The notes under the pieces were generated by a model that did not search any database, had not been told where the DNA came from, and was given only the letters and a program-made list of their open reading frames with translations. This document shows positions 11,211 to 63,468 of a DNA stretch of 64,000 nt, in pieces. The first letter of the stretch is position 1, and each line of letters opens with the position of its first letter. The DNA is taken from NCBI RefSeq assembly GCF_000373365.1, contig NZ_KB891230.1:1-64000 (forward strand). Reading direction: 5' to 3'. The stretch comes from Parafrankia discariae (GTDB lineage: Bacteria; Actinomycetota; Actinomycetes; Frankiales; Frankiaceae). The position numbers and the translations under genes are program-made.

Positions 11211-11240
11211 GAGCACCGCCGGGCCCACCGCGACGGCCCG

Positions 11241-13435: not shown

Positions 13436-13438
13436 GGC

Positions 13439-30384: not shown

Positions 30385-31251
30385 TAAGAGGGTGTCTCGT
30401 GTGGCTCTCCGGGTACATCTTTGATCATGGATGTGATGGAGAACAGCCTGGCGGTGCGGCTGGTCCCGGACGATCTGTGGGAGCTGGTGGAACCGCTGGT
30501 GCCACGGTTCGACACGCGCCGCCAGGGCGGTGGGACCGCGCCGATCGCCGATCGGGCGGTGTTCACCGCGGTGGTGTACGTGCTGACCGCGGGATGTTCC
30601 TGGCGGCATCTACCGGCCGAGTTCGGAGTGTCGGTGCCTACCGCGCATCGCCGGTTCCAGGCGTGGACCCGGGCCGGTCTGTGGGCCCGGTTGCACCAGG
30701 CGGTGCTCGACGTCCATGGCGCCGCTGGTGATCTCGACTGGTCTTCGGTGATCGTGGACGCCGCCAGCCTGCGGGCGAGAAAAGGGGGTCTCTGACCGGT
30801 CCGAACCCGGTCGATCGCGGCAAGGCGGGCTCGAAAATCCATGTCCTGACCGACGGGGCCGGGTTGCCCCTGGTCGTGGCGGTCTCCACCGCGAACCTGC
30901 ACGACAGCCAGGTCCTGATCCCGCTGGTGGCCAGCATCCCCGCGGTCCGCTCCCGGCACGGGCCGCGCCGGCGCCACCCGGACACGCTGCGGGCGGACAA
31001 GGCCTACGACCAGCCGGACCTACGTCGTTTCCTGCGTCGCCAGCGGATCAGAACGCGGACCGCCCGACGCGGCGTGGAGAGCACCGAACGTCTCGGCCGG
31101 CACCGGTAGAACCCTGGCCTGGCTGGGTGGATACCGCCGGCTGACCCTGCGCTACGAACACCACGGCCGGAACTTCCTTGGCTTCCTCTGCCTGGCCGCC
31201 GCGCTCACCTGCTGGAAGAAACTCCCGCACCCCACATGAGACACCCTCTTA
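30385..31251 (+). mobile_element. IS5-family insertion sequence, defective
   Basis: The ends are near-identical inverted repeats: TAAGAGGGTGTCTCGTGTGG on the left and the complement of TAAGAGGGTGTCTCATGTGG on the right, one mismatch in 20. The element is 867 bp. No target duplication is visible, and the two flanks belong to different broken genes. This suggests a deletion next to the element after insertion. Confidence 0.9.
30427..31239 (+). pseudogene. IS5-family transposase (orfA/orfB), inactivated
   Basis: orfA runs from ATG 30427 to TGA 30795 with the family start LVPDDLWELVEPLVPRF and GCSWRHLPAEFGVSVPTAHR, and the first Asp region VIVDAASLRARKGG. orfB is in the -1 frame from about 30792 (GSKIHVLTDGAGLPLVVAVS, then TLRADKAYDQPDLRRFLR and VESTERLGRHR). 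The overlap has agaaaaggggg, suiting the programmed -1 slippage used by two-frame IS5 relatives. Around 31108 the conserved WVVER-type residues with the catalytic Glu are missing. The sequence jumps to LAWLGGYRRLTLRYEHHGRN in another frame, so the element is dead without an indel repair. Confidence 0.88.
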
Positions 31252-43158: not shown

Positions 43159-43272
43159 TTGTTCCGCCACCGCTGTGACCGCGACCGCCGCGGTGCCGTC
43201 AGCCGCCTCGGCGGCGACGACAGTCTCGACGGCGGCAGTCTCAGCGGCGACGGCCCCGGCGGCCAGTCGGGT

Positions 43273-44709
43273 GTGATCGTCGACCGCGCGCACATCGAGG
43301 CCGCGCTGCCCGGCTACGAGGTCGGCGACCTGATCGGGACGGGCGGGTTCGGCCTGGTGTTCGCCGCCCGGCACGTCCGGCTCGAACGGCCGGCCGCGAT
43401 CAAGATCCTGGTACCGGAGCTGGCCGACACCGCCTCCGGGCTCGGGGTGGGCCGGGAGGTCTTCGCGGCGGAGGCACGCCTGCTCGCCCGGCTCACCCAT
43501 CCGCACATCATCCGGGTCTTCGACTACGTCGAGCGGCGCGACCTCTGCATGATCGTCATGGAGCTCTGCGACGGTGGGATGCTGCGGGCTCGGGCCGCGC
43601 GCGGGCTGGCGATGGCGGAGGTGGTCGCGCTCGGCCTGGCGATGGCCACCGCGCTGGACGAGGCGCACCGCAGCCAGGTGATCCACCGTGACATCAAGCC
43701 CGACAACGTGCTCTTCACCGCCGACCACACCCTGAAGATCACCGACTTCGGCATCGCGAAGATCGTGGAGACGACGACCGGCCGCGGCAACACGATCGTC
43801 GGCACCCCCGTCTACATGGCGCCGGAGCAGTTCACCGGAGCCCCGCTGCGGCCGGCGACCGACCTCTACGCGCTCGGGACGGTGCTCTACGAGCTGCTGT
43901 CGGGGCGGACACCGTTCTCCCGCCGGCTCTCCCCCGTCGAGCTCGCCGAGCAGCACCTGCGTGGGTTCCGGCCGCCGCCGCCCGGGTCGACACCGCCGGC
44001 CGTCGGCGGGGTCGTGGTGCGGGCGCTCGACCCCGACCCTGCGCGGCGCCAGCAGAGCGCGCTCGACTTCGCGCTCGACCTCGCCGCCGCGGCCGCGCGG
44101 GATTTCGGCCCCGCCTGGCTGTCGGCCTGCCCCGTACCGGTCCATCTGCCGGACGTCGTCCGCGTCGCCGCGACCACGTCACCGCGGGCCGGACCCGACA
44201 CCGCCATCCCCACCAGCACCGCCACCGCCACACCCGCCGGCTCCGCCGTCCCCACCGGCGCTGCCGGCACCGTCGCGCCCACCGCCGCACTCGCCGACGA
44301 CGCCGCCTCCCCCACCGAGGGTCCGGCCATCCTGCCCAAGGGGCGGGGCGCCGCGGCGGATCGGCGAAGCGGCACCGCGGACTCGCCGGCCACCCGGCGC
44401 GAGGGCCTGCTGCGCCGGTGGGCGGGACGGCGCCCGCCCCGTGCCGACCGGCCCGCGCCGGGGCCGTCGGGGCGGAGCGCCCGGCCCGCCCCGACGGCCC
44501 GCGCTGTCGTGCACCTGCGGGTGGAGAGCCCGTTCGGCCTGGCGGTCGGCCCGGACGGCAGGGTCGCCGTCGCCGCGGCGCGGTCGGGCGAGGTGCCCGT
44601 CCTTGACCCGAAGCAGGTCGCCGTCGGCCCCGACGGGACGCTCTACATCGCGCAGCCAGGCCGGCATCGGATAACCGCCGTGCCCTCCGCGTATCTCCCG
44701 CGCTTCTGA
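43273..44709 (+). CDS. PknB-like Ser/Thr protein kinase with NHL-type tail
   Basis: About 478 residues from GTG 43273; the open frame starts directly after the nSTAND1 stop at 43159. The kinase domain is complete: LIGTGGFGLVFAARH, AAIKIL (Lys), VIHRDIKPDNVLFT (HRD), ITDFGIAK (DFG) and VYMAPEQF (APE). A ~130-residue Pro/Thr/Ala linker follows, then SPFGLAVGPDGRVAV and KQVAVGPDGTLYIAQPGRHR, two NHL/beta-propeller blades. No membrane helix is present and a full propeller needs more blades, so the sensor end looks shortened. Adjacency suggests that it works with the STAND protein. Confidence 0.88.
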   Translation: MIVDRAHIEAALPGYEVGDLIGTGGFGLVFAARHVRLERPAAIKILVPELADTASGLGVGREVFAAEARLLARLTHPHIIRVFDYVERRDLCMIVMELCDGGMLRARAARGLAMAEVVALGLAMATALDEAHRSQVIHRDIKPDNVLFTADHTLKITDFGIAKIVETTTGRGNTIVGTPVYMAPEQFTGAPLRPATDLYALGTVLYELLSGRTPFSRRLSPVELAEQHLRGFRPPPPGSTPPAVGGVVVRALDPDPARRQQSALDFALDLAAAAARDFGPAWLSACPVPVHLPDVVRVAATTSPRAGPDTAIPTSTATATPAGSAVPTGAAGTVAPTAALADDAASPTEGPAILPKGRGAAADRRSGTADSPATRREGLLRRWAGRRPPRADRPAPGPSGRSARPAPTARAVVHLRVESPFGLAVGPDGRVAVAAARSGEVPVLDPKQVAVGPDGTLYIAQPGRHRITAVPSAYLPRF

Positions 44710-49083: not shown

Positions 49084-50279
49084 TCACGGGCCCGTACCGC
49101 TCGTCGTACGAGGCCATGCGGCCTGCTCCAGGCTGGTGACCTCACGCAGGACCTGATCGACGGTGAGCGCGAGCAACCCCGGGGCGGGTGTCCCGCTCCG
49201 GGGATCACTGTGGTGCCCGGCCCACAGGGCGCGGTGCTCCTGCCGTTCGGGGGGCGGTCCCCACTCGGCTGGCGAGACGGGCCCGAACAGCACTACTGAA
49301 GGTTTCCGGTAGGCGGTAGCGAGGTGCGCGACTCCGGTGTCGGCACTCAGCACCAGGTGGGAACGCGCGACGAGGGCACAGAGCGCGACGAGGTCCAGCC
49401 TTCCGGCCAGCACCGTGGATGGGGAAGTCCGGCGGCCGTGGCCACCCGCAGGGCGAGGCCATGTTCCGCCGCGGAGCCCGTGAGAGCGATCTGGTGGCCG
49501 TCACGGGCGAGCTGCCGGGCCACGGCCGCCCATCGGCGCCCGGGCCACCGCCGGGCGGGAGCCGCACCGCCTGGATGGATGACAGTCGGACAAGGCGCGC
49601 TCCCTTCTCCGCGACCAGTGGTTTCTCTGCGTCGAGCGGCGCGGGTGGCGGTCGGGTCTCGCGCCCACCCGCCGCGAACCGGCGGCAGGCCAGGCGGCAC
49701 CTGTAGCCCGAGTTCCGTGGGATCACAACTCACCCCGTATGCCGCCAGCAGCCGGCACCATCGAGACACCTCATGCTCGTCCGCGCTGCCGGCCCGCGCG
49801 AGCGTCGGTGGCTCCCAGGGGCACCCGCCTGGCAGGTCGAAGGCCCACAAGGAGGATGGACCGGTCTGCCTCAACGTCTCCGTGGACTCAGGCCCTCGCC
49901 CGTGCAGGTTCACCGCCAGCGTGGGTGCCGTTACCGCCACCGGTCCGAGTGGGTCTGCCGGCACCAGGCCGTCGACAGCTTCGGAGAGCATGGCCACGGG
50001 TTCGAGCCAGGCCGGTCCGGCGAGCAGGAGCCGGTGCCCGGGCAGTTCGGAAACCAGGTGGCGGCGCAGGCCGCGGAGCGTGGGAAGGGCGGTGAGAAGG
50101 TCCCCCAGTCCCAGGGCGCGCAGGGCGACGACGGTGCCCGCGGCCGGTTCGCAGGCTGCCGGTTCGCAGGCTGCCGAGACCGAGGACAGCGCGCCGGGAG
50201 CCCGGGGCGGCCGGGCGCGGCGCTCGGCCAACCGCCGGCCGCGCCCCGCCGGCCGCGGTGCCTGACGCTTTCGGCTCAC
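49084..50279 (-). CDS. GT9 heptosyltransferase-like glycosyltransferase, frameshifted
   Basis: The protein starts at GTG 50279, overlapping the SDR stop (GTGA). It has TVVALRALGLGDLLTALPTL, the GT-B N-terminal domain of GT9, then PTVIHPGGAAPARRWPGRRW, the typical interdomain entry. Its frame ends at 49347 after ATAAGLPHPRC. The rest is in the next frame: VLAGRLDLVALCALVARSHL, VLSADTGVAHLATAYRKPSV and VLFGPVSPAEWGPP, the nucleotide-sugar pocket of GT9. Adding one C to the C4 run (plus-strand G4 at 49421-49424) restores a single chain of about 398 residues. It is either a recent mutation or a sequencing error. It is the last gene of the left heptose arm. Confidence 0.85.
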
Positions 50280-51085
50280 GGGTAGGACGTCTCCCACGAC
50301 GACGTGATCACGATCTCTCTGATCTCACATCCCGGTGGCTGCCCCAGCGCGAACACGACGGCGGCGGCCACGTCCTCGGGACGGTTCAGCTTCGCGTCGG
50401 GCCCGGGCTTGTACTGCTCGTCGCGGTCGTCGAAGAAGGCGGTCGACATGCCGCCCGGTACCAGGAGGGTGACCCCGACCTGGCCCTTGAGCTCCTCGGC
50501 GAGGGCCCGGGTGAGGCCGACCACGCCGAACTTCGAGGCGCAGTACGCGGAGGCGTCCCCCGCGACGCGGAGACCAAGGGTCGACGCGCAGGTCACGATC
50601 CGGCCGGTCGCGCCGTTGCCGCTCGTGCCGTCGCCGGCCCGTTGGTCGCGGCCGGGGCGCAGATAGGGGAGCGCCGCGCGTACCACGGCGGCGGTTCCCA
50701 GCAGGTTCACCGCCACGATGCGTTCCCAGGCGGCACCGTCCAGTTCATCCAGTGGTGCGGGCGTGTCAATTCCCGCGGCGGTGAAGACGCCGTCCAGCTG
50801 TCCGCCTGTGCGGTCGACGAGGGCGCGTACCGCCGCCTCGGCGTCACGGGTGGCGGCGAGGTCGACGACTTCGTGATCGGTTTCCGGCACGCCCGGTGTC
50901 GGGATCCGGTCCAGGACCAGGGGGCGCCCGCCGGCCGCGCGGACCGCGGCGACCGTCGCCGCGCCGAGCCCGGACGCCCCGCCGGTGATCAGGACTGTGC
51001 CCGGCCCAGCGGGGTCCGATCCCACCCGTGTTCCGGCTGCTCCCGGTGTCTCCGGGATCTGCTGGTCACCGTCAGCTGCTGCCAC
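50276..51085 (-). CDS. Short-chain dehydrogenase/reductase in the heptose locus
   Basis: About 269 residues from GTG 51085, overlapping the fusion gene's end. It is a classical SDR: TVLITGGASGLGAATVAAVR (NAD(P) site), VFTAAGIDTPAPLD, NLLGTAAVVRAALPYL, catalytic Ser in RIVTCASTLGLRV and Tyr-x3-Lys in DASAYCASKFGVVGLTRALA. The tail (CEIREIVITSSWETSYP) is typical. It may modify a sugar or an acceptor, or serve another pathway; the tight packing argues for a role in this locus. Confidence 0.88.
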   Translation of the reverse strand: MAAADGDQQIPETPGAAGTRVGSDPAGPGTVLITGGASGLGAATVAAVRAAGGRPLVLDRIPTPGVPETDHEVVDLAATRDAEAAVRALVDRTGGQLDGVFTAAGIDTPAPLDELDGAAWERIVAVNLLGTAAVVRAALPYLRPGRDQRAGDGTSGNGATGRIVTCASTLGLRVAGDASAYCASKFGVVGLTRALAEELKGQVGVTLLVPGGMSTAFFDDRDEQYKPGPDAKLNRPEDVAAAVVFALGQPPGCEIREIVITSSWETSYP

Positions 51086-53336
51086 GGCGCACCGCCTCTC
51101 TGATGAGGGTCGAGGTGGAACGGCCGGCCAGGTACGGCAGGACGACCGCCTGGCCACCCCAGGACGCGACGATTCCGGCTTCCGGGAGGTGGGTCACCGC
51201 GTAGTCACCGCCCTTGGCGAAGATGTCCGGGCGCAGGTCGGCGAGCAGCCGCGCGGGCGTCTCCTCGTCGAAGATCATCACAGCGTCGACGCTGTCCAGC
51301 CCCCGGAGCACTGCCGCGCGGTCCGCCGCACCGACGAGCGGGCGGCCCGGGCCCTTGAGCCTGCGCACCGAGTCGTCACTGTTCAGGCAGACCACCAGGC
51401 AGTCGCCCAGTGAACGGGCGGCACGCAGGACTTCTACGTGACCGGCGTGCAGGAGGTCGAAGCAGCCGCCTGTCGCGACGACGGTGCCGCCCCGCGCCCG
51501 TACCGCGGCCGCCACGGCGCGCCCGTCGCTCCTCCCCCGCGGCGGACCGCCGTCTGTCCGCCGGGGCGATGGCCGCCAGCGGTCCGCGGGCCCACCGCCG
51601 GGCGGATGGACGGACGCGGAGCCCCCGGCGGCGACGAACTCGCCGGCCTGCCGGGTCGCGGCCGCCACCGCTTCGGAGGGAAGCCGCCCGGCGGCGAACG
51701 CCTCGGCCGCGCTCGCGGCAAACCGGTCCCCGGCACCGCAGGCGTCGCCGCCGCTGACCGGAAGGGCCGGAGTGAGAAGCGGGGGCGCGCTGCCCCCGGT
51801 CACCAGCATCGCGCCGCGTTCGGCGAGGGTGATCGCCACAGCACCGACGTCCCAGTGAGCCGTCAGTGCCCGTCCCCGTGCGCAGACGGCGGACAGCGAC
51901 GCTCCGTCGATGCCGGGGGCCGCGCCGGCCGCCTCCGCTGCGTTCGGCGTCGCCAGGGTGGCGCCGGCCAGGGGCGCGGCACCGCGCGGATGTGGGTCCC
52001 ACACCAGTGGGACTCCGCCCCGCCGCGCGAGCGCGGAACGCAGCGGCGGCGAGGCGGCGACTCCGCGACCGTAGTCCGACACGAGCACTGCGGCGGCCCG
52101 GTCGAGCGCGGTGCGCACCGCGAGGGGAAGGGTACCTTCCACCTGGCCTTCCCCGCCCTCGTCCAACCGGACCAGCGACCGTTCCCTGGCCCGGATCCAG
52201 ATCTTGCTCGGGGTGTTTCCGGTGAGGCCGAGGTCGACGAGTTCCACCCCCGCCTCGGTGAGCATCGCCGCCAGCCGATGTCCGGCGCTGTCCCGGGCCA
52301 GTGCGGTGATCAGCGTCACCGGCGCGCCGTCACCTGCGAGCAGGATCGCGGCGAGGCCGGCGCCGCCGGGGCGTTCGGTCACGTCGAGGGCGTCGAGCAC
52401 GGGCACCGGCGCGTCGGGAGCGAGCCGGGCGGCGTGGCCGCTGATGTCGCGGTCGAGCAGGGTGTCGCCCACCACCACGATGGGTCGCCCGGCGCCCCGA
52501 CTCCCGGACCTGCCCTTACCCGGTGCCGTCGACGGATCACCCTCCGTCCGGAGTGTTTGCCCCGGTCGCCGGACACCAGATGTCCGCTGGCCCGAGGGAC
52601 GCTTCCCACCACGTCCCGGAAAGCCGTCTTCGGCGGCGGTACGGCCATCCTCCGCTACGGCTCGGTCGGCGCCTCGCACCGCGCCCAGTGCGCCGTCGAA
52701 CGCCGCGCACAGCAGGTGCACGGCCACCAGATGCACCTCCTGCACGGTGGAGGTGGGGACGGAGGGAGTCGGGCGTGATCCGGCGATGCCGGCTTCGGCG
52801 GTCTCGCCGACGCCGACAGTCTCGTGGCACAGTCCGGCCAGAGGGCTGCCCGGCGGGCCCAGCAGGGCCCAGACGGTCAGTCCCAGCCTGTCGGCGGTCG
52901 TGGCGGCCCGCAGCAGGTTGGCGCTGCGCCCGGAGGTCGACAGCAGCATCAGCACATCGCCGGGTCGGCCGTGCGCGCGTACCTGGCGGGCGAAGACCTC
53001 GTCGTAGCCGTAGTCGTTGCCGATCGCGGTGAGCGACGAGGTGTCAGCGTGCAGGGCGATGGCCGACATCGCCGGTCGCTCGTCCTGGAAGCGGCCGACG
53101 AACTCGGCTGTCAGGTGTTGTGCCTGGGCCGCCGAGCCGCCGTTGCCGGCCACCAGGAGACGTCCGCCGTTGGGCAGCAGGCCGGCCAGCCGAGCGCCCC
53201 ACCGCTCCAGGCGGGTGACGTCGAGCGTGGGCAGCGTCGCCGCCAGCTCCCGGACGTGGCGATCAGCGTCGCCGGGGCGGTAACCAGGAGAGTCGTCGCG
53301 GCGGGAGCGGTCGCTGTCGACGGGGCCCCGGCTCAT
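51072..53336 (-). CDS. Trifunctional heptose enzyme: GmhA isomerase + HldA kinase + HldC nucleotidyltransferase
   Basis: 754 residues from ATG 53336. Residues ~25-215 are a GmhA-like SIS domain (RLLVAGNGGSAAQAQHLTAE, LTAIGNDYGYDEVFARQV, LLSTSGRSANLL, VQEVHLVAVHLLC) for sedoheptulose-7-phosphate to heptose-7-phosphate. A Gly/Arg-rich linker leads to a PfkB kinase at ~284-580 (VVVGDTLLDRDISGHAARLA; GDACGAGDRF with the catalytic Asp at ~537) for position 1. Residues ~606-754 are a cytidylyltransferase-type domain (GGCFDLLHAGHVEVLRAARS, CLNSDDSVRRLKGPGRPL) making the nucleotide heptose. In Gram-negatives GmhA is a separate protein and only the kinase and transferase are joined (HldE). All motifs look intact, so one protein could carry out three of the four early steps. 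Confidence 0.9.
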   Translation of the reverse strand: MSRGPVDSDRSRRDDSPGYRPGDADRHVRELAATLPTLDVTRLERWGARLAGLLPNGGRLLVAGNGGSAAQAQHLTAEFVGRFQDERPAMSAIALHADTSSLTAIGNDYGYDEVFARQVRAHGRPGDVLMLLSTSGRSANLLRAATTADRLGLTVWALLGPPGSPLAGLCHETVGVGETAEAGIAGSRPTPSVPTSTVQEVHLVAVHLLCAAFDGALGAVRGADRAVAEDGRTAAEDGFPGRGGKRPSGQRTSGVRRPGQTLRTEGDPSTAPGKGRSGSRGAGRPIVVVGDTLLDRDISGHAARLAPDAPVPVLDALDVTERPGGAGLAAILLAGDGAPVTLITALARDSAGHRLAAMLTEAGVELVDLGLTGNTPSKIWIRARERSLVRLDEGGEGQVEGTLPLAVRTALDRAAAVLVSDYGRGVAASPPLRSALARRGGVPLVWDPHPRGAAPLAGATLATPNAAEAAGAAPGIDGASLSAVCARGRALTAHWDVGAVAITLAERGAMLVTGGSAPPLLTPALPVSGGDACGAGDRFAASAAEAFAAGRLPSEAVAAATRQAGEFVAAGGSASVHPPGGGPADRWRPSPRRTDGGPPRGRSDGRAVAAAVRARGGTVVATGGCFDLLHAGHVEVLRAARSLGDCLVVCLNSDDSVRRLKGPGRPLVGAADRAAVLRGLDSVDAVMIFDEETPARLLADLRPDIFAKGGDYAVTHLPEAGIVASWGGQAVVLPYLAGRSTSTLIREAVRRGSS

Positions 53337-54586
53337 GGCCGCGTTCCGACGGGTCGACGTGCACCGGTCCGGATCCCGGCGCGCTTCCCACCCTGGCCGT
53401 GCGCCTCGCGCAGCCGCCGGTAGACGTTCATCGTCAGGGCACTGACGCGATCCCAGGAGAACAGCGCCTGGGCCCGTCGCGCTCCGGCGGCCCCCAGCCG
53501 CGCTCGCTCGTCCGGGTCGGCGGCGAGTTCGGAGAGCGCCTCCACGATCCGTTCCGGGCAACGGGGTGGCACGTGCAGCCCGGTCCCGCCGTCGACGACG
53601 GTGTCGATGAGACCGCCCACGGCACTGGCCACCACCGGCACCCCGCAGGCCATCGCCTCGACTGGGACGATCCCGAAGGGCTCGTACCACGGGACGCAGG
53701 CGACCACGTCGGCCGACCGGTAGAGCGCCGGCAGCTCGGCCCGCCCCACCCGGCCGAGCAGCGTTACCCGGTCACCGGCGCCGGAAAGCCGGGCCAGTCG
53801 GCGCAGCCGGCCGGCCTCGGCGTCGTGGTCCAGTTCGGAGCGGTCCGAGCCGCCGGCGATCAGCAGCTCGGTCCCCGGCAGCGCGGCGACCGCCTCGATC
53901 AGGTTCCCGATGCCTTTGCGCTCGACGAGGCGGCCGACGAACAGGACCCGAAACCGGCCGGGAGCGCGTGCGGCGGCTGGTCCGTGCGGCGTGAACGCAG
54001 CCAGGTCCACCCCGGATGGCACGACGCTGACGCGGTTGCCGGGCGCGCCGAGACGGACCAGCTCGAACAGCTCGTCGGTGCAGGTGGCGACGATCGCGTC
54101 GACCTCCCTGACCAGGCTTGCCTCGGTCTGCACCCGGTCCGGGGGCGAAGTGTCCCTGGAGCCCTGGTGCCGGCGCTTGACCACGCCCAGCGCGTGGCTG
54201 GTGAACACCACGGGGATCCCCAGGGGCCGCGCGGCGGCCAGTGCAGCCGTTCCCGACATCCAGAAGTGGGCGTGCACGACGTCGGGCCGTTCACGCGTCC
54301 ACTGGTCGCGCAGGTCCGCGGCGAAGCCGCCCATGTAGGGCGGGAGGTCGTCCTTGGGAACGGGACGAGTCGGCCCCGCCGGGACATGGTCGACCTCGAC
54401 GCCGTCCGTCAGCGGAACCCGGCGCGGCGGCCCGGGCGAGTCGCGCCGGGTGTGTACGACGACCTGTGCCCCGCGCCGCGCCAAGGCGCTGGACAGGGCC
54501 GCGACGTGGACGTTCTGGCCGCCGGCGTCGACTCCGCCCAGGAGCGCGAGGGGGCTGGCGTGCTCGGAGACCATGCAGATCTTCAT
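53333..54586 (-). CDS. GT4-family glycosyltransferase
   Basis: 417 residues from ATG 54586; ATGA overlaps at both ends bind it to the GT9 gene upstream and the fusion downstream. It is a GT-B fold: MVSEHASPLALLGGVDAGGQ (N-terminal donor/acceptor loop), DVVHAHFWMSG, then RFRVLFVGRLVERKGIGNLI and ELLIAGGSD. The E-x7-E site is YEPFGIVPVEAMACGVPVVA. The GGVDAGGQ start resembles sucrose-phosphate-synthase or MshA-type enzymes. It retains alpha-configuration and probably uses a nucleotide hexose or heptose in the cytoplasm. Confidence 0.88.
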   Translation of the reverse strand: MKICMVSEHASPLALLGGVDAGGQNVHVAALSSALARRGAQVVVHTRRDSPGPPRRVPLTDGVEVDHVPAGPTRPVPKDDLPPYMGGFAADLRDQWTRERPDVVHAHFWMSGTAALAAARPLGIPVVFTSHALGVVKRRHQGSRDTSPPDRVQTEASLVREVDAIVATCTDELFELVRLGAPGNRVSVVPSGVDLAAFTPHGPAAARAPGRFRVLFVGRLVERKGIGNLIEAVAALPGTELLIAGGSDRSELDHDAEAGRLRRLARLSGAGDRVTLLGRVGRAELPALYRSADVVACVPWYEPFGIVPVEAMACGVPVVASAVGGLIDTVVDGGTGLHVPPRCPERIVEALSELAADPDERARLGAAGARRAQALFSWDRVSALTMNVYRRLREAHGQGGKRAGIRTGARRPVGTRP

Positions 54587-55632
54587 GCTGTCGCCTCCAG
54601 GGGCCGGTTCCCACCGGCGGCGTCGCGGGTTACCGCCTCGACCGCGGCAAGCACGTCGCTGACGGTGACGGTCGACAGGCAGGGGTGGCCGGGCACCGGG
54701 CACAGACGCGCTCTGCACCCGGCGCAGTCGATGTCGAGATCGCCGAGGACGACCCCGCGGTCGGAGTAGGCCGCCCAGCGTTCGGCCGGCACTGTGGGCG
54801 CGAACAGCGAGATGACCGGCGTCCCGACGGCCGCGGCCAGGTGCGCCGGCCCGGTGTTGCCGACGACGGTGGCGCGAGCGCCCGCCAGCACCCCGGCGAG
54901 CGTCACCAGGTCGGTCGCCCCGCCCAGGTCGCGTCCAACGGCACCTGCGACATACGCCGTCAGAGCGGTCTCGTCGGCAGCTCCGGTGACGACCACCCGA
55001 TGGCCGTTCCCGGCCAGCGCCGCGGCGAGAGCGGTGAAGCGGCTGGGCTGCCACCGCCGGGCGGGAACCGACGCTCCGGGATGCAGCACAAGGTAGGGCT
55101 GGGAGCCGGTCAGCCGCTGGGTGTCCGGAATCGGCCCGCGGACGCGGGGGCGTCCGTCATCCCCCGCGGGCAGCGGGTATCCGGCCGCGGCCGCGGTCGA
55201 CAGCGCACGCTCGACCTCGTGCAGGCCACTGTCCGGCAGCCGGTGGCGGACGTCGAGCAGGGAGCCCGGATAGTCCTCACTCGCCGCCGCGACTCGCCGG
55301 ATCCCGGCCAGGCGCAGCAGCAGCGCCAGGGGCAGCGGACTCTGATGGGACGACGTGAGGATCAGCGCCTCGTCGAACGCACCCGCGCTCAGTCGCCGGA
55401 CGAGCCCGTCGATGTCGGCTCGTCCGACGGGCGGCGGCTCGGGGTCGATCCAGGGGCAGCGCCAGACGATGAGGTCGTCGACGCCGGGCAGCAGACCCGC
55501 CGCCGCGCGGCCGCGCGGCCCGACGAGCATGGTCACCTGTCCCGCGCCCGCCCGCACCGCGCGCACCGCCGGTCCGGACAGCAGGACGTCACCGTCGCTG
55601 TCGAGCCGCGCGACCAGCACCCGCGTACTCAT
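54583..55632 (-). CDS. GT9 heptosyltransferase-like glycosyltransferase
   Basis: 349 residues from ATG 55632. The N-terminal domain has RVLVARLDSDGDVLLSGPAV and VTMLVGPRGRAAAGLLPGVD, the C-terminal domain YLVLHPGASVPARRWQPSRF, VVTGAADETALTAYVAGAVG, VVGNTGPAHLAAAVGTPVIS and LFAPTVPAERW. These are WaaF/WaaC-like ADP-heptose-using features. A Cys-rich tail (DCAGCRARLCPVPGHPCLS) recurs in the other GT9s here and may bind metal. Four-bp overlaps connect it to neighbours on both sides. Confidence 0.9.
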   Translation of the reverse strand: MSTRVLVARLDSDGDVLLSGPAVRAVRAGAGQVTMLVGPRGRAAAGLLPGVDDLIVWRCPWIDPEPPPVGRADIDGLVRRLSAGAFDEALILTSSHQSPLPLALLLRLAGIRRVAAASEDYPGSLLDVRHRLPDSGLHEVERALSTAAAAGYPLPAGDDGRPRVRGPIPDTQRLTGSQPYLVLHPGASVPARRWQPSRFTALAAALAGNGHRVVVTGAADETALTAYVAGAVGRDLGGATDLVTLAGVLAGARATVVGNTGPAHLAAAVGTPVISLFAPTVPAERWAAYSDRGVVLGDLDIDCAGCRARLCPVPGHPCLSTVTVSDVLAAVEAVTRDAAGGNRPLEATA

Positions 55633-56201
55633 GCGGGACCGCGGGGAGCTGAGAACGCCTGGGCGAGCGCGGCCAGCAGGTCGGGGGCGACCTCAGGCGC
55701 GGCGGCGATCTCCTCCCGCCTGGTGGCCGGGGTCGGCACCAGCACTCCGCGGGCGCCCACGGCGGCCGCGGCGGCCATGTCCGCGCCGATATCACCGATC
55801 ATGACCACGCGCGGCGGTCGCACGCCGAGGGTGTGGCAGGCCGTCACCAGCAGGCCGGGCGCGGGCTTGCGGCAGCCGCACCCGTCCGCCGGGACGTGCG
55901 GACAGACGTGGAAGGCCACCGCGCCGCCGAGCACCGCCGCGAGCCGGGCGTTGACCGCGTGGACGGCCTCCCAGGTCAGCAGGCCGCGCCCGATGCCGCT
56001 CTGGTTCGACACGACCGCCGTGGGAATCCCGCGCTGTCGCAGCTGGCGCAGCGCGGCCGCGGCGGCGGGCATGGGGACGACCCGCTGAGGATCGCCGTTG
56101 TAGGGGACGTCACGGCAGAGCGTCCCGTCCCGGTCGAAGAGCACGGCCTCCGGCCGGGCCGGAACGGCCGCCGCCCTTCGTGCCGGCCGGGGTGCCTCCA
56201 T
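55629..56201 (-). CDS. gmhB: HAD-IIIA phosphatase, GmhB-like (heptose bisphosphate phosphatase)
   Basis: About 190 residues from ATG 56201; GTG 56216 is also possible. HAD motifs: EAVLFDRDGTLCRD (motif I), TAVVSNQSGIGRGLL (motif II), CGCRKPAPG (motif III Lys) and VVMIGDIGADMAAAAA (motif IV). The zinc site HVCPHVPADGCGCRKP (Cys-x-His, Cys-x-Cys) is the hallmark of GmhB and HisB-N enzymes. It would remove the 7-phosphate of heptose-1,7-bisphosphate between the kinase and nucleotidyltransferase steps. The stop overlaps the GT9 start. Its presence beside the fusion strongly supports a heptose pathway. Confidence 0.9.
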   Translation of the reverse strand: MEAPRPARRAAAVPARPEAVLFDRDGTLCRDVPYNGDPQRVVPMPAAAAALRQLRQRGIPTAVVSNQSGIGRGLLTWEAVHAVNARLAAVLGGAVAFHVCPHVPADGCGCRKPAPGLLVTACHTLGVRPPRVVMIGDIGADMAAAAAVGARGVLVPTPATRREEIAAAPEVAPDLLAALAQAFSAPRGPA

Positions 56202-56276: not shown

Positions 56277-57488
56277 TCACCGAGAGTCAACTAGGTCGCG
56301 GACGGAATCCAGGACATCCCGCACCGTGATACCAGCCAGGCAGGCTGGCTCGCTGGTGTCCAGCGGGCAACGCCCGGACCACCAGCATTCCTGGTCGGTG
56401 ATCGCGGTCGGTCGGCGCACGGAGCAGCCCGGCAGGCCCTGCAGATCGACCGTCCAGCCGCGGTGAAGTCCGTACCTGGTCGCCAGCGTCGGTCCATACA
56501 GAGCCACGGTTCTCGCGCCCATCACGGCGGCGAGACGGCACGGCCCGGTGTCGCCGCCCACCACGAGGCCGCCGCGTTCCGCGAGCGCCGCGAACATCCC
56601 GGCCGCCTCCCGCAGGCCCATGGCCGGCAGCACCGCCACCGGAGGCCAGGGCTCGGCCTGCGGCTCCCCCCGCTGCACCGTGGGCTCCGCCGACGGAGGC
56701 TCCGGCGACGGCAGCCGTGCCACCGGCCAGCCAGCGGTGAGCAGCCGGTCGGCCAGCTGCCGCCAGCGGTGGACGGGCCACCGCTTGATCGCCATGCCTG
56801 CCCCTGGAACCAGGACAACCGGTGGGTGCCCGCCGGGTGGACAGTCCTGCGTGGCCAGGCCGGCTGACCGTCTCGCCGCGTCCAGGCCGCGAGGGCCGGT
56901 GCCGCGGAGCGTCCCGCGCCGGGTGAGCGCCTGGGCGAGTGTTTCCCTGCCCCGCGCCCGTTCGGCGGCGGTGAGCCAAAGAGGCCCTGACCGCGCACGG
57001 TCGAGTTCGGCGGAGGCCGCGTCGATCACACCGTCGACGGCGAGCAGCCGGACGAAGCGGGCGTCGACCGCCTCGTCCGGCGGCGGCACGCGCCACAGAT
57101 CGTCGACGGCGGCCACCCCGAGATCGGACAGCAGGCGCGGGATGCCACTGTGCCGGGTGGTCGTGACGGCGAGATCGGGGCGGCGCCGGGTGATCTCGGC
57201 GCGCACGGCGGCCCGGACGCCGCCACCGCTGTGGTCGGTCACTCCGACCACGCGGTCCAGCCGATCATCGGCTGCCAGCAGGTCGGCTCCGGGCAGGAAG
57301 GTCACGACCCGCGTCCGGGCCCGCGGATGCGCCGCCAGGAGGGCTTCCAGGGCCGGTAGCGCCAGCAGCAGGTCGCCGAAGCCACCGAGCAGCTCGATGA
57401 CCAGGATGTCGCGGGCGGCGCCAGGCGCGGGAAGCGCGGCCCGCGACCCGCGGGCCGGCCGCTCAGTCACCGTGACCAGGACTGTCAT
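56277..57488 (-). CDS. GT9 heptosyltransferase-like glycosyltransferase
   Basis: 403 residues from ATG 57488, with 26 bp inside the end of the GT4 gene. N-domain: DILVIELLGGFGDLLLALPA and TRVVTFLPGADLLAADDRLD. C-domain: PVVLVPGAGMAIKRWPVHRW, GLVVGGDTGPCRLAAVMGAR and TVALYGPTLATRYGLH, with the GGDTGP nucleotide-sugar loop. A Cys-rich end (GCSVRRPTAITDQECWWSGR, then CPLDTSEPACLAGITV) matches the other GT9s here. An extra ~45-residue linker between domains is present. It is followed 75 bp later by gmhB. Confidence 0.88.
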   Translation of the reverse strand: MTVLVTVTERPARGSRAALPAPGAARDILVIELLGGFGDLLLALPALEALLAAHPRARTRVVTFLPGADLLAADDRLDRVVGVTDHSGGGVRAAVRAEITRRRPDLAVTTTRHSGIPRLLSDLGVAAVDDLWRVPPPDEAVDARFVRLLAVDGVIDAASAELDRARSGPLWLTAAERARGRETLAQALTRRGTLRGTGPRGLDAARRSAGLATQDCPPGGHPPVVLVPGAGMAIKRWPVHRWRQLADRLLTAGWPVARLPSPEPPSAEPTVQRGEPQAEPWPPVAVLPAMGLREAAGMFAALAERGGLVVGGDTGPCRLAAVMGARTVALYGPTLATRYGLHRGWTVDLQGLPGCSVRRPTAITDQECWWSGRCPLDTSEPACLAGITVRDVLDSVRDLVDSR

Positions 57489-58797
57489 GGCCGCCCGGAG
57501 GCGCCGCGCCGGCAGGAGACCGGGCGTGGAACCGCGCTGGCCGCCCCCGGCCCGTGCCTCCGTCCCGGCATTCCCGGTAGAGCTCCAGATGAGCGTCGGC
57601 TATCCGCGGCCAGCCGCGGTCGGCCAGCAGTGTCGCCAGACCGGCCCGGACCCGGGCGCCGAGGTCCGCGTCGACCAGCAGTCGTCGGATGCCCACGGCC
57701 AGCGCCCCGGCATCGCGGACCCGGGGCACGACGACCGCGGTCCGGGCGTCGACCAACGCCGGATCGGGGGGATCCGCCGCGGTCACCACGACCGGCAGGC
57801 CGTGCGCCGCGACCGCGGCCAGCGCGCCGCTTTTCGCCGTCACGCCGGCGGTGAAGGGCAGCACGGCGATGTCCGCCGCGGTCAGCACCTCGGAGGCTTC
57901 CGCGGCCGGCAGGTGACCGGTCATCAGCACCCGGCCGGCCACACCCGCCTCGCGGGCTCCGTCCTCGAGCTCGCGTCGGAAGGCGTTGGCCTCGGGCTCA
58001 CGCAGCGCCAGGGAGACGAATCCGCCCGCGATCACAAGGCGGACGCCGGGGTGCTCGGGAGCCAGCATCGCGAGCGCCTCGATGAGATATCGCAGGCCCT
58101 TCGCTGGATGGGCGAAGCCGAAGAACGCCAACACGGGCGCCTCCGGTGGCAGCCCGAGCCGCGACCGCGCCACCCGCCGCACCGCGGGGCGGTCCGCGTG
58201 CGAATCCGGAATGACATTCGCGCCCACCGGAACGGATCGCGGGCTGATTCCCAGCCTGCCTCGGACCGCCCTCGCATGCGCGCCGTTCGTGACGATGACG
58301 CGGCTGCTTCGCGGCGCCAGGGCGAGGGTCTCGCGGTCCCACCAGCGACGCCGCTCGACCAGCCGCCACAGCCGGTCCGGTACGTGCGCCGGCCAGCTCC
58401 ACCAGTCGTATTCGTGCAGGGTCGTGACGAGTCGCGTGCTCGCGGGGAGCAGGAGGGGAAGCAGGCCGACGGCCGGTGAGTAGCCGAACGCGGACGGCGC
58501 GAACTGGACGTGGACGACATCCGGCGCAAGCCGGCGCAGCGCGCCCGCCAGTGCCGCGACGCCACGTGCGTTCCATCCGTCCGCCACCTTTATCAGCCGT
58601 GGGCCGGCGGCCGGTTCGGCGGCACCGGCCGGGCCGGCCGTGGCCAGCCAGACGTCCGCCCGGTGCCCGAGAGCCTCGCGCAGGTGCAGCGTGTAGTCGG
58701 CCACTCCGTCCCGCGCCGGCTCCAGGTTGCCGCAGATGAGCGCGATCCTCGGCCGGTCCGTCCGCTGCGACGTGGGCGCGGCTCGGGTCACGGGCAC
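57463..58797 (-). CDS. GT4-family glycosyltransferase, first gene of the left arm
   Basis: About 444 residues from GTG 58797 (gaggg 6-10 bp upstream); TTG 58827 is in frame. GT-B fold: RIALICGNLEPARDGVADYT, DVVHVQFAPSAFGYSPAVGL, STRLVTTLHEYDWWSWPAHV, VLAFFGFAHPAKGLRYLIEA, LVIAGGFVSLALREPEAN and VLTAADIAVLPFTAGVTAKS, with the conserved Glu position replaced by Thr/Ala-rich sequence as in some GT4 subgroups. The tail after 425 is basic. It sits at the divergent promoter, so it heads the left transcript. Confidence 0.86.
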   Translation of the reverse strand: MPVTRAAPTSQRTDRPRIALICGNLEPARDGVADYTLHLREALGHRADVWLATAGPAGAAEPAAGPRLIKVADGWNARGVAALAGALRRLAPDVVHVQFAPSAFGYSPAVGLLPLLLPASTRLVTTLHEYDWWSWPAHVPDRLWRLVERRRWWDRETLALAPRSSRVIVTNGAHARAVRGRLGISPRSVPVGANVIPDSHADRPAVRRVARSRLGLPPEAPVLAFFGFAHPAKGLRYLIEALAMLAPEHPGVRLVIAGGFVSLALREPEANAFRRELEDGAREAGVAGRVLMTGHLPAAEASEVLTAADIAVLPFTAGVTAKSGALAAVAAHGLPVVVTAADPPDPALVDARTAVVVPRVRDAGALAVGIRRLLVDADLGARVRAGLATLLADRGWPRIADAHLELYRECRDGGTGRGRPARFHARSPAGAAPPGGHDSPGHGD

Positions 58798-58932
58798 CGT
58801 GTGCCCTCGTCCGAGCCGTTCAAGCAACCCGCCGGGAGCGGCCTGGGCGCGCTGACCGAGCTGGCGACGTGCCGATTACCGAGGTATCGGCACGCCGGTT
58901 TGGCTCGCGACCACCCGGGCAGCCCGCTCACG
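58798..58932. promoter_or_regulatory. Divergent promoter region of the two heptose arms
   Basis: A 135-bp spacer between two divergent operons. No clear consensus boxes or operators were identified, but this is the only place where promoters for both arms can lie. Confidence 0.55.
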
Positions 58933-60024
58933 ATGCGTCCTCACCCGCCTACCCACCCGGCCGCCCTGCGGGGCGCGCCGATTCAGTGGGCCGGGCTGGA
59001 GCGAATTTTGCTTGTCCGGCCTGACAATCTCGGCGACGTCCTGATGATGGGGCCCGCGTTGCGTGCGCTGAGGGCGGCGGCACCCCGCGCGCGGCTGGAG
59101 CTGCTCGCGTCCCCTTCGGGGGCGGCCGCCGCACCGCTGCTGGACGGGCTCGACGCCTGCCTCGCCGAATCGGTGCCGTGGCAGGACGCGTCCGGGGGCT
59201 CGGCGACGCCCGAATCCCTGCACCGCCTCGTCGCCCGGCTCACTGCGAGGTCCTACCAGGCCGCGGTGGTGTTCACCTCGTTCTCGCAGTCACCGTGGCC
59301 GGCCGCGTACGCTTGTGCGCTGGCGGAGATCCCGGTCCGGGCGGGGGCGTCCCGCGAGTTCGGTGGAGCGCTGCTCACGCACTGGATCGACGACCTTCCC
59401 GACGAGGCGCACCAGGTCGACCGGGCCGCGGAGCTGCTGACCCGGCTCGGCGTGCCAGTGCCCGAACGCGCACTGCGAGTGAAGATCCCCCGGCAGGCCG
59501 AGCAGGACGCCCAGGCCATCGCCGGGCCGCGCCCCTATGCCGTGCTGCTGCCCGGCGCGTCCTGCGCGTCTCGGCGCTGGCCGCCGCGCCGGTTCGCGGA
59601 GCTGGCCGGCCGCCTCGGATCCGCCGGCCTTCGCGTCCTCGTCGCCGGCACCAGCCGGGAGCGCGACCTGGTGCGACAGGTCTGTGCCGGCGCCGGCCCA
59701 GCCGGTGTCGATCTTGCCGGGGCGCTGGACCTGGGGACCCTCGCCGCGCTCCTGCGCCGCGCCGAGATCGCGGTGACCAACAACTCCGGCGGCATGCATC
59801 TCGCCGACGCGGTCGACGCGCCCCTGCTCGCACTGTTCGCCGGGACGGAGCGGGAGTCCGAGTACCGCCCGCGGTCCACGCGCTCCCGCGTGCTGCACCG
59901 CCCCACCCCCTGCGCGCCCTGCCGGGCGTTCGACTGCCCGCTGGGCCACCACGAGTGCCTCGACATCACAGCGGCGCGGGTCGCGGACGCGGCGCTGGCA
60001 CTGCGCGCCCGGAGCGCCACGTGA
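58933..60024 (+). CDS. GT9 heptosyltransferase-like glycosyltransferase
   Basis: 363 residues from ATG 58933. N-domain: LERILLVRPDNLGDVLMMGP and LELLASPSGAAAAPLLDGLD. C-domain: YAVLLPGASCASRRWPPRRF, LRVLVAGTSRERDLVRQVCA, AVTNNSGGMHLADAVDAPLL and ALFAGTERESEYRPR. The NNSGGMHLADA loop is the classic GT9 nucleotide-heptose pocket and is the best match among the four. The Cys-rich end (CAPCRAFDCPLGHHECLDIT) is the family's usual one. It is the first gene of the right arm and overlaps the GT2 gene by GTGA. Confidence 0.92.
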   Translation: MRPHPPTHPAALRGAPIQWAGLERILLVRPDNLGDVLMMGPALRALRAAAPRARLELLASPSGAAAAPLLDGLDACLAESVPWQDASGGSATPESLHRLVARLTARSYQAAVVFTSFSQSPWPAAYACALAEIPVRAGASREFGGALLTHWIDDLPDEAHQVDRAAELLTRLGVPVPERALRVKIPRQAEQDAQAIAGPRPYAVLLPGASCASRRWPPRRFAELAGRLGSAGLRVLVAGTSRERDLVRQVCAGAGPAGVDLAGALDLGTLAALLRRAEIAVTNNSGGMHLADAVDAPLLALFAGTERESEYRPRSTRSRVLHRPTPCAPCRAFDCPLGHHECLDITAARVADAALALRARSAT

Positions 60025-60950
60025 ACGCCGCGGGTGAAGGCGGAAGCACCCGGGAGGCGGACGCCGCCCGCGATCTCGATGTCCTGGTGCCCACCTGCGG
60101 CCGACCGGACGCCCTGGCGGTCACTCTGGGCGGTCTGGCGGCACAGACGGTGCGCGGTTTCCGGGTGGTCGTGTCCGACCAGACCCCGGCGCCGGACGAG
60201 CTGTCCGTGGACCGCCCGGCGTGCCGCGCGGTAACGCGCGTCCTGCGGCTGCGCGGAAGCGAGGTGGAACTGCACCGCGGGCGGCCGTGGCGTGGCATGG
60301 CCGAGCAGCGGGATTTCCTGCTGTCCCGGGCGCGAGCGACCCGGGTGCTCTTCCTCGATGACGACATTCTGTGCGAGCCCGGCGCCCTCTCCCGGATGCT
60401 GGCGGCTCTCGGCACGCTGCGCTGCGGCTTCGTGGGAGCGGCGCCGCAGGGACTCAGCTTCCTCGACGACGTGCGGCCCGCCGAGTGGGCCGCGTTCGAG
60501 CCGGTCACCGGTCCACCCGGCCCGGAACGGGTACGCAAGGGGATGCCGTCCTGGCAGCGGTGGCGTCTGCACAACGCGGCGAACCTCACCCATCTCACCC
60601 ATCTCGCCCAGATAGCCGGCGCTACCGCCCGGCGGCGGGAGTGGACCGCGTACCGGGTCGCCTGGATCGCCGGATGCGTCCTCTACGACCGCGTCAGGCT
60701 CCAGGAGGCCGGCGGCTTCGGTTTCTGGACGCGCCTGCCCCCGGGGCACCGTGGTGAGGACGTCGTGGCTCAGCTCCGCGTTCTCGAACGGTCAGGCGGA
60801 GTGGGCATCCTGCCTCCCGGCACCGTCCATCTGGAACTGCCCACCACGCTGACGGATCGCCGGGTGGACGCCTACGCGGAGATCATCGAGGCCGACGACG
60901 CCGGCCGCAAGGCCCGGCGCGGTCGCCGATCCGGAGGAGAGGGCCCATGA
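60021..60950 (+). CDS. GT2-family glycosyltransferase
   Basis: 309 residues from GTG 60021. GT-A core: LDVLVPTCGRPDALAVTLGG, FRVVVSDQTPAP, RGMAEQRDFLLSRARATRVL then FLDDDILCEPGALSRMLAAL, with the DDD metal site, and RVAWIAGCVLYDRVRLQEAG and PPGHRGEDVVAQLRVLERSG (ED acid-base region). It is inverting and cytoplasmic or membrane-associated; no membrane helix is present. Four-bp overlaps connect it to the GT9 and hldE genes. Confidence 0.87.
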   Translation: MNAAGEGGSTREADAARDLDVLVPTCGRPDALAVTLGGLAAQTVRGFRVVVSDQTPAPDELSVDRPACRAVTRVLRLRGSEVELHRGRPWRGMAEQRDFLLSRARATRVLFLDDDILCEPGALSRMLAALGTLRCGFVGAAPQGLSFLDDVRPAEWAAFEPVTGPPGPERVRKGMPSWQRWRLHNAANLTHLTHLAQIAGATARRREWTAYRVAWIAGCVLYDRVRLQEAGGFGFWTRLPPGHRGEDVVAQLRVLERSGGVGILPPGTVHLELPTTLTDRRVDAYAEIIEADDAGRKARRGRRSGGEGP

Positions 60951-62503
60951 ACGCCGTGTCGGCCTTGCCCGCGACGCGGGATCCGTTCGCCAGGCGGGAC
61001 GCGCTCGACGCGCTCGCTTCCCTCTACGCCCTTGACCTCCTGGTTGTCGGTGACGTCATGCTCGACAGCTGGGTCTGGGGCCCGTCTCGAGGCCTGTCCC
61101 GGGAGGGCCCGGTGCCGGTGGTCGCGGTCGCCGGGAGGTCCGAGGCCCCGGGCGGTGCCGGCAACGCGGCGGCCGCGGCGGCCGGGCTCGGTGCCCGCGT
61201 GCGACTGGTCGCCACCGTGGGCGACGACCAGGACGGCGCCCGGCTGCGGGAGCTGCTGAACGATGCCGGTGTGGACACCGCCGCGGTCCTCGATGACCAG
61301 GGCCGGCGAACCGTCCACAAACAGCGGATCTGCTCCGGCGAGCATCTTCACCTCCGTGTAGACAGCGGTGACGAGGCGCCGCCCGGGCCGGCGGCCGGCG
61401 CCGGGGTCAGGAGCCGGCTGTTCGACGCCGCGGCGGGAGCCCTTGGCCTCGTCGGCTCCTGCGCCGCCGTGCTCGCCTGCGACTACGGCACCGGTCTGTT
61501 CTCCCCGGAGCTGGTGCGCCGGCTGGGCTCGGCCGCCCGGAGCGCGGGTCGGCCGCTGGTCGTGGACGCCCACGACCCCCGCCGCTGGGCCCCCGCGCGG
61601 CCGGACATCGTGACACCGAACGCGGCGGAGACGGCCAGCCTGCTGCCCCCCGATGCGGCCGGTCCGTTCCTGGCTGACCGGCCGCGCACCGTGGCGGCCC
61701 ACGCGGAGGCGATCCTCGCCGCGGCCGGAGCCCGTGTCGTCGTCGTCACGCTCGACCGCGACGGGCTCGTCGTGCTCGACGGCGAGCGTCCGCCGCTGCA
61801 CCTGCCGGCCGAGCCCGCCCCGGACGGCCACACCGCCGGCGCCGGCGACACCCTCGCCGCCACGCTCGCGACCGCGGTGGGTGGCGGGGCGGCGCTGGAG
61901 CCGGCCGTCATCCTCGCCGCCGCCGCCGCGAGCGTCGTCGTCCGCAGGCCCGGTACGAGCGTGTGCACCGCCGCCGATCTCCGCGCCTGCCTGGCCCCGA
62001 AGCCCCCGGGAGCGATCGACCTGCCCGCGCTCGCCGAGCAGGTACACGCCGAACACCGCCGCGGCAGCCGGATCGTCCTCACCAACGGGTGCTTCGACGT
62101 CCTGCACCGCGGCCACATCGCCTACCTCGCCGCCGCCCGGGCGCTCGGGGACGTCCTGATCGTGGGAGTCAACAGCGACGCCGGCGTGCGGCGACTCAAG
62201 GGCCCCGAGCGTCCGGTGAACACCTTGGAGGACCGGCTGGCGGTACTCACCGCCCTCACCGACATCGACCATCTCGTCGTCTTCGACGAGGACACCGCGA
62301 CCGATCTGATCACCGCGCTGCGGCCGGACGTGTACGTCAAAGGCGGCGACTACACGGAGTCGATGCTGCCGGAGGCAGCGCTCGTCCGCGCCCAGGGCGG
62401 GCAGGTGCGTTTCGTCGACTACGTACCCGACCACTCCACCAGTGGGCTTCTCGACCGGATCCGCGGCGGTCAGACCCCCGCCCTCGTGCGGAGGCGGCCA
62501 TGA
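60947..62503 (+). CDS. hldE: Bifunctional heptose kinase/nucleotidyltransferase HldE
   Basis: 518 residues from ATG 60947. The PfkB domain at ~20-345 has LLVVGDVMLDSWVWGPSRGL, SEAPGGAGNAAAAAAGLGAR and DGHTAGAGDTLAATLATAVG with the catalytic Asp. The nucleotidyltransferase at ~375-510 has IVLTNGCFDVLHRGHIAYLA, GVNSDAGVRRLKGPERPVNT and DVYVKGGDYTESMLPEAALV. It is close to Gram-negative HldE in order and length. It is the second such enzyme in the locus, besides the fusion at 51072-53336. The two may serve different heptoses or nucleotides, or one may be a duplicate. The ATGA overlap is with the next gene. Confidence 0.92.
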   Translation: MNAVSALPATRDPFARRDALDALASLYALDLLVVGDVMLDSWVWGPSRGLSREGPVPVVAVAGRSEAPGGAGNAAAAAAGLGARVRLVATVGDDQDGARLRELLNDAGVDTAAVLDDQGRRTVHKQRICSGEHLHLRVDSGDEAPPGPAAGAGVRSRLFDAAAGALGLVGSCAAVLACDYGTGLFSPELVRRLGSAARSAGRPLVVDAHDPRRWAPARPDIVTPNAAETASLLPPDAAGPFLADRPRTVAAHAEAILAAAGARVVVVTLDRDGLVVLDGERPPLHLPAEPAPDGHTAGAGDTLAATLATAVGGGAALEPAVILAAAAASVVVRRPGTSVCTAADLRACLAPKPPGAIDLPALAEQVHAEHRRGSRIVLTNGCFDVLHRGHIAYLAAARALGDVLIVGVNSDAGVRRLKGPERPVNTLEDRLAVLTALTDIDHLVVFDEDTATDLITALRPDVYVKGGDYTESMLPEAALVRAQGGQVRFVDYVPDHSTSGLLDRIRGGQTPALVRRRP

Positions 62504-63468
62504 ACATCCTGCTCTGGCACGTGCACGGCTCCTGGACGACCTCCTTCGTCCAGGGCGGCCACCACTACCTGGTGCCGGTGACACCGGAACGCGGCCCGGA
62601 CGGCCTGGGCAGGGCCCGGACATACCCGTGGCCGCCCTCGGTCGAGGAGGTGCCGCCCGCCGAGCTCGCCGACAGGCCGGTCGACGCCGTGCTCCTGCAA
62701 CGCCCGCACGAGATCGAACTCGCCTCCCGCTGGCTGCGCCGACGAGTCGGGCGGGACGTGCCCGCCATGTACGTCGAACACAACACCCCTCGCGGCGACG
62801 TTCCGCTGTCCCGACACCCGGTCGCCGACCACGAAGACGTCGTTCTGGTGCACGTGACCCACTTCAACCGCCTGTTCTGGGACAACGGAACCGCCCGGAC
62901 CCGCGTCATCGAACATGGGATCGTCGATCCCGGGCCCCGCTACACCGGCGAGCTGCCCCGGATCGCCGTGGCCGTCAACGAGCCGGTCCGGCGCGGGCGG
63001 ATCACCGGCACCGACCTGCTCCCAGCTTTCGCCGCCGCCGCGCCCGTCGACGTGTACGGCCTGGGCGTGCGCGGGCTGCCGGAGGCCACCGGCCTGCCGC
63101 CCGATCGGCTCACGGTGCTCGACGACCCCCCGCAGGCCGAGCTGCATGCCCGGATGGCCCGCCGACGGGTGTACGCGCACCTGCCCCGCTGGACGTCACT
63201 GGGCCTGTCCCTGCTGGAGGCGATGCACCTGGCGATGCCGGTGGTCGCGCTGGCCACCACCGAGGCCATGGCGGCGGTCCCGCCCGGTGCCGGGGTGCTC
63301 TCCACTGACCCGGCGGTACTCGTCGACGCCGTGCACGCGTACGTCGAGGACCCGACGCTCGCTGCCGACCACGGCCGCCGCGCGCGTGAGGTCGCGCTCG
63401 CGCGCTATGGGCTGGAGCGCTTCCTAGGGGACTGGGACGAGCTGTTGAGCGACATCGTGACCAGCTGA
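62500..63468 (+). CDS. Glycosyltransferase (GT-B, GT4-like) of the heptose locus
   Basis: 322 residues from ATG 62500. Visible features: NILLWHVHGSWTTSFVQGGH then HYLVPVTPERGPDGLGRART, VDAVLLQRPHEIELASRWLR, VPAMYVEHNTPRGDVPLSRH, VVLVHVTHFNRLFWDNGTAR, then HGIVDPGPRYTGELPRIAVA, a GT-B linker. The end has VYAHLPRWTSLGLSLLEAMH then LAMPVVALATTEAMAAVPPG, the donor-site region of GT4 enzymes. It is short for the class. It ends the right-arm overlap chain. Confidence 0.8.
   Translation: MNILLWHVHGSWTTSFVQGGHHYLVPVTPERGPDGLGRARTYPWPPSVEEVPPAELADRPVDAVLLQRPHEIELASRWLRRRVGRDVPAMYVEHNTPRGDVPLSRHPVADHEDVVLVHVTHFNRLFWDNGTARTRVIEHGIVDPGPRYTGELPRIAVAVNEPVRRGRITGTDLLPAFAAAAPVDVYGLGVRGLPEATGLPPDRLTVLDDPPQAELHARMARRRVYAHLPRWTSLGLSLLEAMHLAMPVVALATTEAMAAVPPGAGVLSTDPAVLVDAVHAYVEDPTLAADHGRRAREVALARYGLERFLGDWDELLSDIVTS

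Follow-up and report, generated by a model that had tools for sequence, protein, structure and literature searches.

Gene content of the locus

The window analysed here is the whole 64,000-nucleotide stretch of contig NZ_KB891230.1 from Parafrankia discariae. Its minus strand carries, at 53336..51072, an unbroken frame of 754 codons plus a stop; the plus-strand frame is closed. Pfam finds three domains in the product, SIS_2 at residues 40–160 (E 3e-24), PfkB at 286–574 (E 2e-15) and CTP_transf_like at 622–715 (E 7e-17), and the nearest NCBIfam models for the three parts are GmhA, HldA and HldC, respectively. Isomerase, kinase and nucleotidyltransferase domains are found in a single chain, and both model sets agree with the domain order given in a preliminary description of this DNA. 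The HldC-type domain scores above its curated cut-off (rfaE_dom_II TIGR02199, 183.0 versus 181.5 bits). The remaining models score under theirs: gmhA TIGR00441 (144.6 bits, cut-off 209.45), GmhA PRK13936 (157.7, cut-off 276), rfaE_dom_I (142.1, cut-off 345) and HldE PRK11316 (294.6, cut-off 521). By curated score the SIS part is not an equivalog of TIGR00441 or PRK13936.

Solved structures matched by sequence include phosphoheptose isomerases, the putative cytidylyltransferase 5x9q, which we take to be an HldC, and Burkholderia cenocepacia HldA. An AlphaFold model, computed from an alignment of 87 sequences of the window and the loci, reaches a mean pLDDT of 85 and a pTM of 0.63, with pLDDT <50 in the linkers at residues 237–277 and 582–599. 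The top 50 Foldseek matches of this model in the PDB comprise HldA, other PfkB-fold kinases and GmhA/DiaA structures, with no nucleotidyltransferase structure among those 50.

The fusion gene lies in a cluster rich in glycosyltransferase genes. Its start codon overlaps, as ATGA, the stop of the upstream GT4 gene GT4a (53333..54586, minus strand), which is preceded on the same strand by the GT9 heptosyltransferase-like gene GT9b (54583..55632), a GmhB-like HAD phosphatase gene (55629..56201), the GT9 gene GT9c (56277..57488) and the GT4 gene GT4b (57463..58827, start codon uncertain). The best NCBIfam match of the phosphatase is heptose 1,7-bisphosphate phosphatase, at 112.5 bits against a cut-off of 178. 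It had been described as adjacent to the fusion; it does belong to the same cluster, but two glycosyltransferase genes intervene. Downstream of the fusion on the minus strand are a short-chain dehydrogenase gene, SDR (50276..51157, start codon uncertain), and the GT9 gene GT9a (49087..50297). The latter is frameshifted relative to the homologous gene of Parafrankia sp. EUN1f (locus L010), having near 49422 one base fewer than the L010 gene, which stays open there; it is either a pseudogene or the product of a sequencing error. On the plus strand lie the GT9 heptosyltransferase-like gene GT9d (58933..60024), a GT2 gene (60021..60950), an unfused kinase and nucleotidyltransferase gene termed HldE-2 (60947..62503, 518 aa) and the GT4 gene GT4c (62500..63468). 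HldE-2, 8 kb from the fusion and 41% identical to the fused HldE, is the only other match to the fusion protein in this genome, and L010 and L017 carry it in this cluster too. The preliminary description mentioned neither HldE-2 nor the cwg-type operon discussed below.

Fused and split forms among relatives

The three domains share one frame in five further Frankiaceae sequences, six with the window's own. Identity to the window protein is 86–87% for L004 and L010, about 60% for L005 and L105, and 55% (best segment) for L017. Besides the window, the fused carriers are Parafrankia sp. EUN1f (L010; L003 is the same contig and not independent), genomes G002, G005 and G137, and Pseudofrankia asymbiotica. 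A search of six genomes of the genus, the window's own included, gave matches in four, all of them fused (G000, G002, G004 and G005), and no match at E 1e-20 in G001 and G003. Because the same frame is kept in six Frankiaceae sequences, chance and an assembly or frameshift artefact are ruled out; frame, Pfam domains and the five relatives confirm the single three-domain chain of 754 residues that had been described.

The fusion gene is under purifying selection. Compared with L010, dN/dS is 0.40 for the SIS domain, 0.31 for the kinase and 0.12 for the nucleotidyltransferase, and near neutral for the two linkers (1.03 and 0.86). Measured between fixed anchors, the first linker varies from 36 to 64 codons across the six Frankiaceae sequences, and codons 221 to 286 of the window gene include no ATG, GTG or TTG, leaving no internal start at the joint. 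From these linker properties we expect one polypeptide, with joints that resemble plain tethers.

Loci were picked for their similarity to the window protein, and close relatives are over-represented in the best 80 of at least 250 confirmed. Among the matches listed, 83 loci have both parts: seven rows are fused (one contig accounts for both L003 and L010) and 76 are split. A start–stop overlap of the form ATGA, GTGA or TTGA joins the two genes in 53 of the 76 split loci among these matches. For the split relatives, programmed frameshifting or read-through of the stop was considered and set aside: hldE is in the +2 frame in 54 of the 76, all but one of these (L077) with the ordinary overlap, and among the remaining split loci in these matches it is in the +1 frame in 17 and in the same frame, with a stop between, in five.

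Two samples of genomes give a broader view. Of 98 genomes of the class, searched with a match threshold of E 1e-40, 24 match, the window's own included. Three of these are fused (the window's own, G002 and G137), all from its family, and 19 are split into neighbouring gmhA and hldE genes; in G188 and G140 there is no isomerase beside the gene in the stretch examined. Of 100 genomes of the phylum (threshold E 1e-20), 33 match, again counting the window's own, and 14 others have an isomerase adjoining the HldE of the fused type (HldE-1). Thirteen of these 14 side-by-side pairs proved to be split when examined at the DNA level; the fourteenth, in G083, gives two matches in different frames by coordinates. 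The two samples overlap in seven matching genomes besides the window's own. As expected earlier, the fusion is not commonplace in these samples (three fused versus 19 split in the class); the fusion as the usual actinobacterial form finds no support in them. The title of Tang et al. 2022 suggests that tridomain forms are widely conserved, more so than the samples here show.

Outside the Frankiaceae, fused genes were found in Nocardia abscessus (L016), a MAG (L021), Embleya sp. NBC_00888 (L099) and the Streptomyces FR1 and F8 plasmids (L100 and L101). A quick tree, with SH-aLRT support only, was made from all 11 fused rows, 62 of 107 split rows chosen by a similarity filter and 6 of 19 HldE-2 rows. 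In it the fused rows occupy three places, namely the six Frankiaceae (SH-aLRT 98), the four rows from Nocardia, Embleya and the Streptomyces plasmids (99), and the MAG, with the HldE-2 rows on a branch of their own (96). The tree suggests that the fusions likely arose independently; by parsimony there are three fused groups, of which the starred branches force only one. The plasmid-borne tridomain genes, at 8980–10950 of L100 and 5980–7941 of L101, are annotated only as rfaE2 and sit among P450, carbamoyltransferase and serine hydroxymethyltransferase genes.

Correspondence with the cwg operon and with known tridomain enzymes

Gene order was compared in 59 loci of at least 20.5 kb, drawn from the best 80 of at least 250, with genes named by best match so that paralogues may be mixed: GmhB is present in 54 of these loci, GT9b in 57, GT4a and GT4c in 58 each, GT9a in 54, SDR in 46 and HldE-2 in 12. 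The exact order GmhB-GT9b-GT4c-GT4a-GmhA/HldE-SDR-GT9a occurs in 23 of the 59 loci listed, and the same order without SDR in nine. This cwg-type order is seen across several actinobacterial families, and the HldE-2, GT2 and extra GT9 and GT4 genes of the Frankiaceae cluster are additions to it.

The name is that of an operon of Streptomyces coelicolor. In the accessible text of PMC5839063, cwgG, cwgH, cwgI and cwgJ (SCO6185-6188) are annotated as transferase, phosphoheptose isomerase, bifunctional synthase/transferase and transferase. The part of PMC6767563 available to us describes a 12-gene cwg operon with a predicted role in cell-wall glycan synthesis, induced by vancomycin and partly sigma-E-dependent. 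The same succession of transferase, isomerase, bifunctional enzyme and transferase occurs in the window, the S. coelicolor side of this comparison coming from annotation. CwgH and CwgI (SCO6186, SCO6187) have by annotation the same two functions as the fusion, and the same neighbour order, but they are encoded by two genes where the window has one; the window also adds a second HldE, a GT2 and further GT9 and GT4 genes. This match in gene order makes the window gene look like cwgH and cwgI joined. We therefore regard it as probable, from sequence and gene order, that the gene is a fusion of the normally separate, translationally coupled gmhA/cwgH and hldE/cwgI of a conserved actinobacterial cell-wall-glycan operon, and that its product is a tridomain NDP-heptose synthetase.

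The architecture itself is not new, because the tridomain class is already in print. The passages seen of PMC11573728 and PMC11461863 (2024) describe heptose nucleotidyltransferases in mono-, di- and tridomain (isomerase/kinase/nucleotidyltransferase) forms, so the novelty earlier attributed to the three-domain arrangement falls away; those of PMC10948575 cite Tang et al. 2022 and name a BL21 strain of E. coli that lacks gmhA, gmhB and hldE. These tridomain NDP-heptose synthetases, or HENases, and the window protein have in common an isomerase, a kinase and a nucleotidyltransferase in one protein, and the fusion is a well-placed further example of the fused enzymes described rather than a surprise. 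Our literature search found no text on the Parafrankia fusion gene or on its match to cwgH-cwgI, which is not proof of absence.

Catalytic residues, proposed role and alternatives

The window protein has counterparts of Escherichia coli GmhA H61, E65, Q172 and H180, and so do 114 of 114 SIS rows. According to the portion of PMC5387315 available, the side chains of E65 and H180 are the crucial ones in E. coli GmhA, and the zinc ligands of the gonococcal enzyme are H61, E65, H183 and Q175. With all GmhA catalytic residues in place, the earlier assignment to the GmhA-HldA-HldC pathway is borne out. All 117 rows, of which L081 and L118 are identical, have the kinase GAGD motif, which is intact in the window; both histidines of the nucleotidyltransferase HxGH motif are likewise kept in all of them. 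E. coli GmhA and HldE thus resemble the fusion in domains, catalytic residues and presumed reactions. They differ in that E. coli GmhA is a separate protein, and in that the fusion, besides falling below the model cut-offs, has Leu and Gly in place of E. coli HldE Asn55 and Asn346, as do all 117 rows; the HldE-2 rows keep both asparagines (18 of 18), and so does the window's HldE-2. Within the PfkB GGxxN motif, the Asn is a sugar contact.

At the nucleotidyltransferase motif (F/L)XXGRSTT the window reads YLAGRSTS, with the Arg kept and the first and last positions off; the strict form occurs in 10 of the 117 rows and a relaxed form in 83. In the available text of PMC11573728 and PMC11461863 this Arg marks heptose nucleotidyltransferases that also use CTP and UTP. 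The motif marks the NTP-promiscuous members only, not the tridomain class.

We infer the activities of the fusion, the nucleotide it uses, its end product and its regulation. Most likely this CwgH-CwgI fusion makes nucleotide-heptose for a cell-wall glycan and covers three of the four steps that lead from sedoheptulose 7-phosphate to NDP-heptose. The PfkB domain would phosphorylate C1; the separate GmhB-like phosphatase would remove the C7 phosphate between the second and third steps of the fusion, the bisphosphate leaving the chain and the monophosphate returning; and the C-terminal domain would join heptose 1-phosphate to a nucleotide, from ATP and possibly also CTP or UTP. The neighbouring GT9 and GT4 enzymes would then add the heptose to the surface glycan. 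Since the phosphatase step falls on a separate protein between kinase and nucleotidyltransferase, complete channelling is not expected, and the linkers, low in model confidence and fast-evolving, argue against a rigid tunnel. Channelling of every step, as first proposed, was an overstatement, and full channelling by the fusion protein is unlikely; simpler advantages are that the parts are produced equally and loosely tethered. Gonococcal GmhA is a tetramer, as stated in the part of PMC5387315 at hand, so by analogy the fusion may gather several kinase and transferase domains.

Several other readings bear on this one. The fused kinase domain might no longer act on heptose 7-phosphate, with HldE-2 supplying the kinase and the fusion contributing only isomerase and nucleotidyltransferase. 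Trp380 is peculiar to the window protein, since all 117 rows have Arg at this position, and it could be kinase-domain decay or a sequencing error; nearby there are Gly-to-Arg and Gly-to-Glu changes relative to L010, and HldE-2 keeps both Asn55 and the Arg. We nevertheless find kinase loss improbable, as the kinase dN/dS against L010 is still purifying, the GAGD motif is intact, and many class-sample genomes with this type of HldE have no HldE-2 match at the threshold used. A DiaA-like identity for the SIS part, or that of another non-GmhA protein with the isomerase fold, is hardly credible: a DiaA model does reach 113 bits and the GmhA models stay below their cut-offs, but the latter score higher than DiaA, the four GmhA zinc and catalytic residues are conserved throughout, and the pathway partners are fused or adjacent.

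It is quite improbable, too, that the cluster makes a secreted natural product, such as a heptose-bearing antibiotic, rather than a wall glycan. The two Streptomyces plasmids do carry fused genes in natural-product-like surroundings, but their rows belong to a different branch of the tree, and the Frankiaceae cluster keeps the cwg-type order. An extension of the wall-glycan reading that we regard as doubtful, though less so than these alternatives, is that cwg-type HldE, fused here, is a separate kinase/nucleotidyltransferase branch whose sugar pocket (Asn55 to Leu) and nucleotidyltransferase motif (TNG to TGG) are altered in all 117 rows, and that where it occurs beside an E. coli-type HldE, as in the window, the two might make differently activated or configured heptoses for one wall glycan.

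The wall-glycan reading connects the tridomain heptose enzymes already known with a conserved operon, vancomycin-induced in S. coelicolor, and it offers a handle on possible heptose in actinobacterial wall glycans; the two HldE types in one locus raise the question of sugar and nucleotide specificity. NDP-heptoses are strong innate-immune agonists, according to the accessible text of PMC11461863, and knowing which soil bacteria can make them is of some general value.

Elsewhere on the plus strand of the window are gas-vesicle genes (10461–14263; two PF00741 and one GvpL/GvpF), a transposase in two pieces, first DUF4096 (IS4/5-type) and then DDE_Tnp_1 (30421–31109), an integrase-core (rve_3) transposase gene (35357–36463) and, at 39019–44709, two consecutive genes, the first for a 1379-residue nSTAND1-WD40 protein and the next for a protein kinase.
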